A stretch of DNA of 64,000 nucleotides from Adlercreutzia sp. ZJ176 (GTDB taxonomy: Bacteria > Actinomycetota > Coriobacteriia > Coriobacteriales > Eggerthellaceae), in assembly GCF_011038975.1 (NCBI RefSeq), contig NZ_JAAKEC010000002.1, forward strand, positions 62,001-126,000, in the 5' to 3' direction. The translations under genes were made by a program, and so were the position numbers. Below the pieces are notes generated by a model that saw nothing but the letters and a program-made list of their open reading frames with translations, was not told the origin of the DNA and searched no databases. Numbering within the stretch: the first letter of the stretch is position 1; every line of letters begins with the position of its first letter. Below, in pieces: positions 58,321 through 64,000 of the stretch.

Positions 58321-59583
58321 ATGCGCGACAAGCTCTGGACACCTGCCAACGTCATCACGCTCACGCGCATCTGCCTCGTGCCGGTGTTCGTGCTCGCCCT
58401 CCTGAGTCCCTGGCCCGAGTGGTTCGGGCTCGACTTCATCAGCGCGCAGATGAAGTCGCTCGTGGCGGCGGGGGTGTTCATCCTCATCTCGTGCACCGAC
58501 TGGGTCGACGGCTACCTCGCGCGCAGCCGCGGCGAGGTCACCGACTTCGGCAAGTTCATGGACCCGCTCGCCGACAAGATCCTCGTGGCGGCGGCGCTGC
58601 TCGCGCTCGTGGAGCTCGGCGTGCTGCCGTCGTGGCCCGTGCTCATCATACTGGCGCGCGAGTTCATCGTCTCGGGCGTGCGCATGATCGCCGCCACGAA
58701 GGGCGAGGTCATCGCCGCGAGCTGGTACGGCAAGGCCAAGACGGTGTTCCAGATCGTCGCCATCGTGCTGTTCCTCGTGAAGGACGGCCTGCATCCGGAC
58801 ACGGTCAGCTCCGCGTTCGGTGATCCGCTCTACGTGCTGTCATGGCTCGTCATGATCGTCGCGCTCGTGCTCACCATCGTGTCGATGCTCGACTACCTGT
58901 CCAAGGCGCGCCACCTTCTCGGCTTCGCGCCGGCGAAGGCCCGTGAGTCGGCGAAGGGGCCGGCCGAAGGCGGAGCCGCAGATGGGGACGCGGGCGCGGT
59001 GAGCGACGAAGCGCAGGACGTGGCGAAGGACGGAGCGCGGGGCGCGACGCAGGACGCAGCGGGCCGGGAAGAGGCGGGGCGGGAGGCGCCCTCCGTCGCC
59101 GAGCTTGACGCGCTCGTGCACGCCGAGGCGCGCGCGGTGGTCGAGAAGGCGCTGGCGAGCGGCACGAGCCTGGCCACGGCCGAGAGCCTCACGGGCGGCA
59201 TGATCTCAAGCGCGCTCACGTCGGTCCCCGGCAGCTCGGGTGTGGTGCGCGGCGGCGTGGTGAGCTACGTGAACGAGGTGAAGCACGGCGTCCTCGGCGT
59301 CGACGCGCACGTGCTCGAGGCGCAGGGCGCGGTGTGCGCCGAGGTTGCCGAGGGCATGGCGCGCGGGGCCCGGCGCACGCTCGGCGCCGACGTGGCCGTC
59401 GCCGTCACCGGCATCGCCGGGCCCGGGGGAGCCGAGGAGGGCAAGCCCGTGGGGACCGTCTGGTTCGGTTTCGCCGCTGAGGGCGAGACGCGCTCTTGGA
59501 CGCGCTGCTTTGGGGGGACACGCGAGCAGGTCCGCCAGCAGACGGCCCTCGAGGCGCTCCGCGCCCTCGCAGGCGAGGTGTAG
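58321..59583 (+). CDS. Fusion of phosphatidylglycerophosphate synthase (PgsA) and CinA/PncC amidase domain
   Basis: Residues ~1-198 are a CDP-alcohol phosphatidyltransferase with five or six membrane helices and the DG-AR-G-D-D signature in DWVDGYLARSRGEVTDFGKF...D (~60-85). This makes phosphatidylglycerol phosphate from CDP-diacylglycerol. A charged Ala/Glu linker (~199-262) leads to a CinA C-terminal domain (~263-420: ATAESLTGGMISSALTSVPG, VVSYVNEVKHGVLGV, VTGIAGPGG), which hydrolyses nicotinamide mononucleotide in PncC proteins. pgsA and cinA are often adjacent before recA; here they are one frame with no internal stop. Confidence 0.9.
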   Translation: MRDKLWTPANVITLTRICLVPVFVLALLSPWPEWFGLDFISAQMKSLVAAGVFILISCTDWVDGYLARSRGEVTDFGKFMDPLADKILVAAALLALVELGVLPSWPVLIILAREFIVSGVRMIAATKGEVIAASWYGKAKTVFQIVAIVLFLVKDGLHPDTVSSAFGDPLYVLSWLVMIVALVLTIVSMLDYLSKARHLLGFAPAKARESAKGPAEGGAADGDAGAVSDEAQDVAKDGARGATQDAAGREEAGREAPSVAELDALVHAEARAVVEKALASGTSLATAESLTGGMISSALTSVPGSSGVVRGGVVSYVNEVKHGVLGVDAHVLEAQGAVCAEVAEGMARGARRTLGADVAVAVTGIAGPGGAEEGKPVGTVWFGFAAEGETRSWTRCFGGTREQVRQQTALEALRALAGEV

Positions 59584-59945: not shown

Positions 59946-61001
59946 ATGAACCAGGACAAAGAGAAGATGCTCAAGCTCACGACCGACCAGATCGAGTCGA
60001 AGTTCGGCAAGGGCTCCATCATGAAGCTCGGCGAGGGCGGCGCGGACCTCAACATCGGTGTCATCCCCACCGGCGCGCTGCCGCTCGACGCGGCGCTCGG
60101 CATCGGCGGCGTGCCGCGTGGGCGCATCATCGAGATCTACGGCCCCGAGTCGAGCGGCAAGACCACGCTCGCGCTCCAGATCCTGGCGGAGGCCCAGGCC
60201 ATGGGCGGCATCGTCGCGTTCATCGACGCCGAGCACGCGCTTGACCCCGTCTACGCCGCCCGCCTCGGCGTCGACATCGACGAGGTCCTCATCTCCCAGC
60301 CCGACACCGGCGAGCAGGCGCTCGAGATCTGCGACATGCTCGTGCGTTCAGGCGCCATCGACTGCGTGGTGATCGACTCGGTGGCGGCGCTCGTCCCGCG
60401 CGCCGAGATCGAGGGCGAGATGGGGGACACCACGGTCGGCTTGCAGGCGCGTCTCATGTCGCAGGCGCTGCGCAAGCTCGCCGGCTCGCTCTCCAAGTCG
60501 AATACCACGTGTATCTTCATCAACCAGCTGCGCGAGAAGATCGGCGTCATGTTCGGCAACCCCGAGACCACCACGGGCGGCCGCGCGCTCAAGTTCTTCG
60601 CGAGCGTGCGCATCGACATCCGCCGCATCGACTCCATCAAGCAGAGCGGCGAGATCGTCGGCAACCGCGTGCGCGCGAAGGTCGTCAAGAACAAGGTGGC
60701 CCCGCCGTTCCGCCAGGCGGAGTTCGACCTCATGTACGGCGAGGGCATCTCGCGCGAGGGCTGCATCATCGACATGGCCGTCGAGTGCGGCGTCGCGAAG
60801 AAGAGCGGCGCGTGGTACACCTACGGCGAAGAGCGGCTCGGGCAGGGGCGCGAGGCGGCGAAGAACACCCTGCGGGAGAACCCTGACATGCGCGACGAGA
60901 TCGAGCGCAAGGTGCGCGAGGCGTTCGACATCCCGGTCCTCGACCAGAACCTCGGCGAAGACGCGGCCACGCCGCTCCCGAAAGACGGCAAGCGGAAGTA
61001 G
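59946..61001 (+). CDS. recA: Recombinase RecA
   Basis: RecA promotes strand exchange and LexA self-cleavage. The 351-residue protein has Walker [11 protein letters not shown] (~65), [30 protein letters not shown], the DNA-binding loop region [14 protein letters not shown], and [18 protein letters not shown] 59946 follows AAAGGAG. It is followed after 9 nt by recX. Confidence 0.98.
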
Positions 61002-61010
61002 CGCGCGCCT

Positions 61011-61487
61011 ATGCCGTCGGAGAGCAACGTGATCGAAGAGCAGGCCGACAAGGCGTACCAGAAGGTCCTGCGCTGCGTGAGCGTGCGCGAGCAGTCCACG
61101 GCGCGCATGCGCGAGAAGCTCCTGCGCGCCGGGTTTGACCCCGCGGCGGCCGACCACGCGATCGAGCGCGCCTGCCGTGCTGGCGCGCTCGACGACGTCC
61201 GCTACGCCGAGGCGCTCGTGCGCGCCACGCTCGCCGCCGGCAAGGGCCTGCGCTTCGCCGAGGCGGAGATCGAGGAGCTCGGAGTTGACGTCAACGCCCT
61301 CGACGCCTACCGCGACCACCTTGACGCCGACGACGGCGACGAGGTGGCCCGCGCGCTCGCAGCCATCAAGGCGCGCCCGCCGCGCGCCAAGAACAAGCGC
61401 GAGGCGGCCTTTCGCCGCTGCGTTGCGAAGGGCTTCTCCGCCGACGTCGCAACCTCCGCCGCGCGGATATGGTGTGAGGAAGGATAA
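61011..61487 (+). CDS. recX: Regulatory protein RecX
   Basis: RecX modulates RecA filament growth. The 158-residue protein has the helical repeats of the family ([55 protein letters not shown]). It lies directly after recA, the usual place. Confidence 0.9.
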
Positions 61488-61540
61488 TCCGTTCGCATTT
61501 GCTCAGGCGAAAGCCCCTCTTTATGAGGTATACTTAATTC

Positions 61541-61648
61541 TTGCTTTGAGCAATGCGTACCCGATGGGTATTTCATATAGATATAACTGCATAGTGAGTC
61601 TATCCTGTCGTGCTTATTGCTCATGTCGGCTTGTTGCCGGCATTTTTT
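61541..61648 (+). ncRNA. Candidate structured leader or small RNA upstream of rny
   Basis: A TATACT (61529-61534) could start a ~108-nt AT-rich transcript. GAGCAAT (61548-61554) pairs with ATTGCTC (61616-61622) to close a junction holding TACCC-GAT-GGGTA (61558-61570) and ATAGA/TCTAT (61577-61581, 61599-61603). It abuts an intrinsic terminator: ATGTCGGC (61623-61630), loop TTGTT, GCCGGCAT (61636-61643), then T's. A 13-codon frame (61553-61594) lies inside. This may be an attenuator of rny or an independent RNA; I do not recognise the class. Confidence 0.5.
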
Positions 61649-61699
61649 GTTGACTGACCAACCTCAAGACGTAACCAACCTAGACGAAAGGGGGAGCAC

Positions 61700-63265
61700 A
61701 TGATCGAAACGATCCTGCTCATTGTCGGCGTCGCCGTCGGCATCGCCCTCGGTATCGTCGTTGCGCGCTTCATCGCAAACTCTTCCACGAAGAAGGCCGC
61801 CGACGAGGCTGCCGCGCTCACGAAAAAAGCTGCTGATGAGGCATCTGCGCTTGTCGAAGACGCGAAGCGACAGGCGGAGACCATGCGCCGCGAGGCCGAC
61901 ATCGAGGCCAAGGACAAGGCCATCCAGTACAAGCAGCGCGTTGACGACGAGAACAAGGAGCGCCTGCGCGAGGTGCGCGCGGCTGAGAACCGCGTGTCGC
62001 AGCGCGAGGAGTCGCTCGACCGCCGCGTCGAGACGCTCGACGCGCGCGAGCATCAGCTCTCGTCCCTCCAGGGCCAGATCGAGCGCCGCGAGCGCGACCT
62101 CGACGCGGCCGAGGTGGAGATGGGCCGCCGCCTCGAGCGCGTGGCGGGGATGACGCCGCAGGAGGCGAAGGCCGAGATGCTCGACGCCCTGCGCGACGAG
62201 GTCACCCACGAGTCCGCCGCCATCATCCGCGACGCGGAGACGCGCACCAAGGCCGAGGCCGACAAGAAGGCGCGCATGATCCTGAGCCTCGCGATCCAGC
62301 GCGTGGCCGCCGACCACTCGGCCGAGAACACGGTGTCCACCATCCACATCCCCTCGGATGATCTCAAGGGCCGCATCATCGGCCGCGAGGGGCGCAACAT
62401 CCGCTCGTTCGAGCAGCTCACCGGCACGAACCTCATCATCGACGACACGCCGGAGTGCGTGACCATCTCGTGCTTCGACCCGGTTCGCCGCGAGATCGGC
62501 CGCGTCACCATGGAGAATCTCGTCGCCGACGGGCGCATCCATCCCGCGCGCATCGAGGAGATGTACGGCAAGGCCGTCTCATTCGTGAACCAGCGCGTCC
62601 AGGAGGCGGGCGAGCAGGCCGTGTTCGACACCGGCATCCACGACCTCGACCCCGAGCTCGTGCGCACGCTCGGCCGTCTGCGCTACCGCACCTCCTACGG
62701 GCAGAACGTGCTCAACCACTCGCTCGAGGTGGCCTACCTCGCGGGCGTCATGGCCTCCGAGCTCGGTCTCGACCCCATCCCCGCCAAGCGCGCGGGCCTT
62801 CTGCATGACCTTGGCAAGGCGGTCGATCATGAGGTCGAGGGCAGCCACGCCGTCATCGGCGCCGACCTCGCGCGCCGCTTCGGCGAGCGTGCCGAGATCG
62901 TGCACGCCATCGAGGCCCACCACGCCGACGTCGAGCCCAACACCATCCTCGACGTGCTCATCCAGGCGGCCGACGCCGTCTCCGCCGCACGCCCCGGCGC
63001 CCGCAAGGAGACGCTTGACGCCTACATCAAGCGCCTCGAGAAGCTCGAGGAGATCGCCAACGCGCACGAGGGTGTCGAGCGCACCTACGCCATCCAGGCC
63101 GGCCGTGAGGTGCGCGTCATGGTGAAGCCCGAGGTGGTCGACGAGGCGCAGGCCGTCGTCCTCGCGCATGACATCGCCCACCAGATCGAGAGCGAGATGC
63201 AGTACCCCGGTCAGGTGAAGGTCGTGGTGATCCGCGAGAGCCGCGCCGTCGACTACGCAAAATAG
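61700..63265 (+). CDS. rny: Ribonuclease Y
   Basis: RNase Y is a membrane-anchored endonuclease that starts mRNA decay. The 521-residue protein has an N-terminal membrane helix (~3-22), a long coiled coil (~28-195), a KH domain (~210-270; [20 protein letters not shown]) and an HD domain with the catalytic [10 protein letters not shown] (~369-378). ATG 61700 follows AAAGGGGGAG. The terminator-bearing structured stretch before it suggests regulated expression. Confidence 0.96.
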
Positions 63266-63266
63266 C

Positions 63267-64000
63267 ATGAGCGAGAAAGCGCTGACCGCGTTCGTGGAGT
63301 CAGTGTGCGGCGATAGCCACCTCCGCGTCGAGCAGGACTTCGGAGGTGGCTACGTTCGTCTTCGGAGCACCGAGGCCGAGAAGCGCCAGGCCGCCCAGGA
63401 CATCCGCTCGACCGAGGACATCGTGATCGAGCTCCTGCGCAACGCCCGCGACGCCGGCGCGCGCCAGGTGTTCGTCGCCGCGCAGCGCGATGACGTGACG
63501 CGCACGCTTACCGTGATCGACGACGGCTGCGGCATCCCCGAGGGCATGCGCACGCGGGTGTTCGAGCCGCGCGTCACCTCGAAGCTCGAGACCGCCCACA
63601 TGGACAAGTGGGGCATGCACGGGCGCGGCATGGCACTCTACTCCGTCTCCGTGAACGCCGAGGAAGCCTATGTGGCCGCCTCGTGCGAGGGCGCCGGCAC
63701 CTCGCTCGTCGTCAGGACAAACCTGGAGAAGCTCAAGGAGAAGACCGACCAGTCGACGTTTCCGCACTTCGAGGTGCGTGACGGGGTGCACGCCATGCGC
63801 GGGCCGCGCAACATCGTGCGCACCGCAGCCGAGTTCGCGCTCGAGCACCGCCGGGAGTGCAGCGTCTACTTCGGCTCGGCCACCGAGATCGCAGCCACGC
63901 TGTACGAGTACGGCACGGCGACCACCTCGCTCGCCGAGCGCACCTTCGCCCCAAGCGGCCTCGCGCTCACGAAGCGCCTCGCCACCGCGACTGACCCCGC
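63267..64000 (+). CDS. GHKL-type ATP-binding protein, 3' end outside the window
   Basis: The frame from ATG 63267 is open to the window end (244 codons seen). It has a GHKL ATPase fold: N-box ELLRNARDAGARQVF (~57-71), G1 box IDDGCGIPEG (~87-96) and G2 box GMHGRGMALYS. The pattern (RSTEDIVIELLRNARDAG near the N-terminus) resembles MutL/topoisomerase VI B-like stand-alone ATPases rather than sensor kinases, since no His-phosphotransfer domain precedes it. It starts one base after the rny stop, so it is likely co-expressed. Its function is unknown. Confidence 0.75.
   Translation, partial: MSEKALTAFVESVCGDSHLRVEQDFGGGYVRLRSTEAEKRQAAQDIRSTEDIVIELLRNARDAGARQVFVAAQRDDVTRTLTVIDDGCGIPEGMRTRVFEPRVTSKLETAHMDKWGMHGRGMALYSVSVNAEEAYVAASCEGAGTSLVVRTNLEKLKEKTDQSTFPHFEVRDGVHAMRGPRNIVRTAAEFALEHRRECSVYFGSATEIAATLYEYGTATTSLAERTFAPSGLALTKRLATATDP

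Follow-up and report, generated by a model that had tools for sequence, protein, structure and literature searches.

The window examined here, a stretch of 64,000 nucleotides from Adlercreutzia sp. ZJ176, carries towards its end recA (59946-61001), recX (61011-61487) and rny (61700-63265), all on the forward strand, as are the features described below. The product of rny was recognised as RNase Y by TIGR03319 (693.8 bits against a cut-off of 454.35) and by its RNase_Y_N, KH_1 and HD domains, and the gene is preceded by a Shine-Dalgarno-like GGGGGAG at 61690-61696. The gap between recX and rny harbours the element studied here (61529-61648). As an earlier note on this DNA had observed, this segment is AT-rich in GC-rich surroundings: its GC content was 0.41-0.44, compared with 0.68-0.79 over recX, and 0.62-0.77 was found in the first 500 bases of rny. 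A gene for a HATPase_c (GHKL) protein (63267-64000), cut by the window end, starts one base past the rny stop; judged by eye, a similar stretch also lies 3' of rny in several relatives, and this protein may be co-expressed with RNase Y. Upstream of recA, Pfam recognised both a PgsA-like CDP-alcohol phosphatidyltransferase and a CinA domain in a single open frame (58321-59583), an apparent pgsA-cinA fusion. No tRNA or tmRNA was detected in the window.

Within the leader, all the motifs pointed out in the earlier note were found. TATACT, the -10 box of a putative leader promoter, occupies 61529-61534, and GAGCAAT (61548-61554) and ATTGCTC (61616-61622) belong to a closing stem, P1, of 8 bp. Its strands, UGAGCAAU at 61547-61554 and AUUGCUCA at 61616-61623, are supported by sequence, fold and alignment. 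P1 encloses a hairpin, P2 (GUACCC-GAU-GGGUAU, 61557-61571; 61557-61562 paired with 61566-61571), and an AU-rich conserved core (UAUA...AUA, 61576-61593), which could be paired (P3) or single-stranded and is a candidate binding or cleavage site. An intrinsic terminator directly abuts the closing stem (61623-61649; fold and terminator scan): its stem, AUGUCGGC/GCCGGCAU (61623-61643), has 8 bp, 5 of them G-C, and is followed by a T run. The 120-nt segment folds with -37.3 kcal/mol against a shuffle mean of -24.3 (z -4.3), and none of 200 shuffles was as stable. The three-way junction that had been proposed is less clear than the note had it: folded on its own, the sequence reaches its energy minimum as an extended, irregular rod, and the conserved parts are P1, P2 and the AU-rich core. 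Between 61555 and 61614, the P2 strands are complementary to the 3' region, so that GAUGGG could instead pair with CCUGUC in a rod fold, in competition with P2; this alternative, with GGGU pairing downstream rather than in P2, appears in single-sequence folds.

We then asked for the same structure in relatives, whose absence the earlier note had named as evidence against its reading. DNA 5' of rny was taken from 119 genomes of Eggerthellaceae, the family of the window, one stretch having just 72 bases. Of 65 chosen leaders, six (mis-parsed or doubtful) were removed before a first alignment, A1, and nine of the remaining 59 (long or odd loops) before A2, a trimmed alignment (UGAG...CUCAU) of 50 diverse family leaders. 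A1, built with MAFFT and including 5' flanks, misaligned two groups and yielded no pairs in RNAalifold. On A2, RNAalifold returned P2 alone, P1 and P3 coming from a run with other settings. The A2 consensus comprised P1 as UGAGN/NCUCA, P2 with the majority sequence GUACCC...GGGUGU, and the core UAUAnACAA...AUA, whose columns are nearly invariant. Pairing was possible in 93.8% of 695 cells, compared with 85.7% in shuffles and 26-63% when partners were slid; both sides of a pair had changed in 60 cells, where shuffles gave 16.7 and slid controls 2-17. The covariation score was 0.327 versus 0.167. Double changes affected 6 pairs, a number equalled by 52 of 500 shuffles. Conserved and covarying structure is thus present in relatives. 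The leader forms a conserved covarying domain as expected of an aptamer-like element, nearly all compensatory change sitting in P2 (5 of its 6 pairs in the 50 sequences). P1 is mostly invariant across A2, with one strongly covarying pair, and its 97.6% pairing partly reflects selection, because the leader parser rewards P1 pairing, while P2 was not selected for. No compensatory change was seen for P3 among the 50 sequences of A2, so that P3 is a candidate pairing.

A covariance model of A2, R1, was then compared with the individual leaders. Sense matches (E <=0.05, leaders alone as target) were obtained in 110 of 119 (80/89 plus 30/30), so that P1, P2 and the AU-rich core recur 5' of rny throughout most of the family. 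Fifty of the 119 had served to build R1; of the remaining 69, 60 matched, including many that are closely related to the model-building set. R1 also matches the antisense strand in several leaders. The leaders without a match were L071, L107 (the 72-base piece), L125, L128 and L145-L149. By eye, L071 resembles a diverged leader copy. L146-L149 (genomes G010, G113, G016 and G101) belong to the most diverged full-length RNase Y of the family (62-66% identity), and in G016 and G101 rny closely follows the upstream frame, which by eye suggests leader loss.

Two placements of the element were used for counting. R1 placed 110 leaders, while a later element parser, which slightly favours candidates with a -10 box or with UGC/UGU after CUCA, placed 103 of 119, including at least one likely false parse (G010). 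Promoter and outer-pair counts repeated with the model-placed leaders agreed with the parser counts. All four UGAG/CUCA pairs are possible in 98 of 110 leaders. Further outward, 70 of 110 leaders allow P1 pairs 2 and 3, which point towards the terminator or enter it, compared with 165 of 1100 flank controls. When 3' flanks were re-dealt among species, P1 positions 1, 2, 4 and 5 did not exceed shuffles, and position 3 gave p 0.009. What marks the outer pairs of P1 is conservation, not covariation.

These data also bear on the simplest account of the site, that it is the plain terminator of recA-recX accompanied by a chance fold. The site does lie just past recX, and one terminator-like site is about what chance provides for the stretch scanned (0.9 expected in 1.2 kb), so that the window terminator alone is not significant. 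This account is nevertheless contradicted by the conservation and covariation of the upstream domain and by its own -10 box, and we regard it as highly improbable.

As for the 13-codon frame (61553-61594), it exists in the window, as the earlier note had stated, but the leader-peptide role suggested for it was not upheld, the frame not being conserved among relatives. An ATG near the equivalent place was found in only 21 of 103 parsed or 20 of 110 model-placed relatives. Products from the equivalent ATG were mostly short or unlike, a related start being common to four close relatives. A looser frame test (at least 8 codons preceded by a purine-rich stretch) was positive in 48 of 103 and was uninformative. 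The frame was consequently not counted in the mechanism proposed below.

A search of 297 genomes of the order with R1, under strict filters, returned matches at E 0.01 in 74 of the 90 that belong to the family and in none of the other 207. In 73 of the 76 matches the leader preceded the matched part of rny in the same orientation, at a distance of 55-455 nt (median 84); two more were the same place read in antisense, and the contig of the last one does not carry the matched rny piece. Of the 16 family genomes missed in this search, eight give a sense match once the search is confined to the leader. In the source genome, a 215-base query found no second copies at E 0.001, and R1 gave a single match. 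Rfam 15 yielded no match at curated score either in the window or in 20 loci of other families; the best sub-threshold match at the leader was rseX, with 24.1 bits where 50 are needed. An Rfam assignment was therefore rejected, rseX, Hrs12 and others lying far below their cut-offs, relatives included.

A conserved domain closed by P1 beside a terminator is what a small-molecule riboswitch controlling rny would look like. As a rule of thumb, however, 74 genomes should between them hold a metabolite riboswitch at more than a single gene, while the leader was found solely at rny, at one place per genome; this single-copy linkage to one gene argues against a riboswitch of that type. Given also that Rfam offers no match and that the gene context suggests no ligand, we consider it unlikely. 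The exclusive linkage to rny suggests instead autogenous control, with RNase Y itself as the regulator.

Within the family, a promoter box accompanies most of the leaders. A -10-like hexamer (score at least 7) precedes UGAG in 100 of 110 model-placed leaders, compared with 8 of 329 controls, and in 99 of 110 it ends 9-12 nt before UGAG. With the box placed in this way, the transcript should begin at the foot of P1, which in the window would correspond to a start at about 61541-61545. The promoter scan of the window returned no full sigma-70 match, the -10 being good and the -35 poor, and the strength of the promoter in the window is accordingly uncertain. Between the terminator and the Shine-Dalgarno sequence, a -10-like box (score at least 7) occurred in just 2 of 91 leaders. 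From this, rny should depend on read-through, whether from the leader promoter or from recX. The order of an attenuator, namely promoter, terminator and gene without a second promoter, is present at the sequence level.

The same arrangement could describe an independent gene for a trans-acting small RNA of about 100 nt, with its own promoter box and terminator, merely placed before rny. Such a gene would not be tied to one neighbour, yet among the 297 genomes the element was not found away from rny, save for the one match on a separate contig. The scarcity of promoter boxes between leader and gene, which makes rny appear dependent on read-through, likewise speaks against a free-standing unit, and this explanation seems to us quite improbable.

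We next considered the terminator in relation to P1. By our criteria a terminator is recognised in 90 of the 103 parsed family leaders and missing in 13. The two structures share 0 nt in 5 leaders, 1 nt in 25, 2 nt in 19 and at least 3 nt in 41 (n=90), i.e. at least 2 nt in 60 of 90. For the window's own leader, with 2 nt shared, the fold with the terminator is the more stable by 6.3 kcal/mol; its transcripts would then mostly be terminated unless P1 is stabilised. No other antiterminator was found in the 90 family leaders (59 non-redundant). A classical antiterminator inside the leader was rejected, as the terminator arms pair no better with their own element than with foreign ones (mean rank 0.51 and 0.54 against other species, compared with 0.26 for the P1 control).

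Outside the family, both in the rest of the order and in further orders of the class, rny has leaders that, judged mostly by eye, are laid out similarly but differ in sequence. The clearest sister type begins with a -10 box, followed after about 7 nt by GGCAUUUUGAUC, then a hairpin and an AUA-containing stretch, and continues with GAUCANNAUGCC straight into GGAUG...CAUCCGGC and T's. Among 53 loci of other families, 31 fit the pattern UG(C/U)CGGA; four were dropped as overlong or mis-parsed, and 27 were used. Leader starts were chosen partly by pairing, so that pairing in this set is not independent evidence. In the sister type the terminator begins with UGCC, the very bases that make up the 3' strand of P1, and the two stems cannot both form in full. 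The P1 3' strand and the terminator 5' arm overlap by at least 2 nt in 26 of 27 sister leaders. Forced P1 and terminator folds differ by a mean of -0.2 kcal/mol and lie within 4 kcal/mol of each other in 26 of 27, a near-equality that is partly built in, as both stems pair GCC with GGC. A T-rich tail was present in 23 of 27. For the pairing of the leader ends, the mean rank against foreign partners was 0.37 in the 27 leaders and 0.19 in the 10 without a GAUC motif. The sister alignment, A3, is good at its ends only and was not used for counts. In other orders, a UGCC(G/A)G(G/A) stretch occurred in 18 of 24 leaders, at least one of these occurrences being fortuitous, and many T runs were weak.

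Run on the 53 sister loci, R1 gave three weak matches (E 0.18, 0.25 and 3.9). The first and the last cover P2 and the core, and the one at E 0.25 covers a promoter and is spurious. Homology across families therefore rests on layout and not on the model, and by this resemblance common descent of the leaders is likely. In the family designated f10 (L247, L251, L275, L277, L285 and others), the closing stem and hairpin were seen by eye with a T run that is absent or weak, as if the domain had outlived its intrinsic terminator; in family f4, a clear terminator could not be read by eye. In f10 and f4, then, termination may not be the mechanism.

Taken together, we propose that the leader is a cis-acting transcription attenuator of rny in which P1 acts as the antiterminator, a reading to which we assign a probability of roughly 0.6. 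The earlier note had described the geometry as that of a riboswitch or attenuator, and attenuator geometry is supported: the -10 box keeps a fixed distance, the leader is conserved and covarying, a terminator stands ahead of rny, and in the sister families P1 and terminator overlap and are nearly isoenergetic. The computed support consists of conserved structure, position, terminator and overlap, with no other promoter box. According to this model, transcription would start after the -10 box, and the mRNA would begin at the foot of P1. The nascent leader would fold so that P1 closes P2 and the AU-rich core, the outer 3' side of P1 running into the 5' arm of the terminator. If the P1 domain is held, the foot of the terminator would be blocked and the polymerase would read into rny; if P1 is loosened, the terminator would form and a leader RNA of about 100 nt would be released. 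Both the switching and its direction belong to the model. The near-equal energies of P1 and terminator in the sister type are what a poised switch would need, stabilisation of P1 then being predicted to yield read-through. The leader thus probably sets the amount of RNase Y made.

Our best guess is that the signal would be the level or activity of RNase Y, acting as negative feedback through the core. In its fullest form, the model describes a class-wide sensor of decay capacity: RNase Y would bind or cut the core of the nascent leader, P1 would loosen, and the terminator would shut off rny. We put this forward only tentatively, as a version that is more probably wrong than right. If it held, RNase Y would be set by transcription attenuation and not by message stability.

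The serious rival is control after transcription. Here, the 5'-terminal stem would protect the mRNA and the core would be a site at which RNase Y cleaves and so shortens its own message; the terminator hairpin would be a by-product or a stabiliser, and control would act on stability without attenuation. In B. subtilis, RNase Y autoregulates by cutting its own transcript, through cuts in the first ~100 nt of the frame and in the 5' UTR, those in the UTR falling mainly in the first 50 nt, and the enzyme prefers single-stranded, AU-rich sites close to structure (PMC10303841, in the part at hand). The core of our leader is AU-rich and lies ~30-50 nt from the inferred 5' end, and the leader persists in some lineages that lack a clear T run. 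Against this, control by cleavage has no need of the terminator found in 90 of 103 family leaders or of the T-rich tail of 23 of 27 sister leaders, and only some of the cores contain the G that reportedly marks preferred RNase Y cuts. On balance we think this route rather unlikely, if less so than a riboswitch.

The significance of attenuation at this gene follows from the role of its product: RNase Y starts much of the mRNA decay in B. subtilis, and likely does so in many other bacteria (PMC10303841 and PMC11313650, in the parts at hand). A conserved rny attenuator, if true, would be a new way to set the decay capacity of the cell. Among the matches listed for RNase Y, Coriobacteriia and structured RNAs, and within the parts of those sources at hand, no such leader is described. 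The main texts of PMC11109978 and PMC8632094 contain no rny, RNase Y, Eggerthella, Coriobact- or Collinsella, and that of PMC2965389 contains no rny, ymdA or Eggerthella. The leader would add a structured RNA family for Coriobacteriia, one to which Rfam 15 has no match.

Several known systems offer comparisons. RNase E autoregulation acts through a leader represented in Rfam by the family rne5. The rne 5' UTR resembles the rny leader as a structured leader of a decay-initiating RNase gene (RNase E is mentioned in the part of PMC10303841 at hand), but the gene is unrelated, control proceeds by mRNA cleavage without a terminator, and the rny leader has no Rfam match. B. subtilis RNase Y autoregulation is closer in that it concerns the same gene and is exerted partly in the rny 5' UTR; it differs in working by RNase Y cleavage together with RNase J1 (PMC10303841, same part). 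A structure over the ribosome-binding site, common to close relatives of B. subtilis, is described there too, but it enters the coding region and is not the leader reported here (PMC10303841). The words terminator, attenuat- and hairpin are absent from the main text of that source, as far as it was at hand.

With riboswitches and ribosomal-protein leaders, the rny leader has in common a closing stem that shares bases with the terminator; it departs from them in matching no known family and, in Eggerthellaceae, in the small size of the overlap. The comparison is with those riboswitches and protein-binding leaders, ribosomal-protein ones among them, in which closing stem and terminator compete; leaders confined to a single gene often report on its own product. 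The pyrG attenuator of B. subtilis, finally, relies on pairing of the transcript 5' end with a terminator arm. The rny leader is unlike it in that its 5' end lies inside a closed structured domain and lacks a G run that would allow slippage. It is like pyrG in the sister families, where the inferred first transcript bases, GGC, can pair with the GCC of the terminator.
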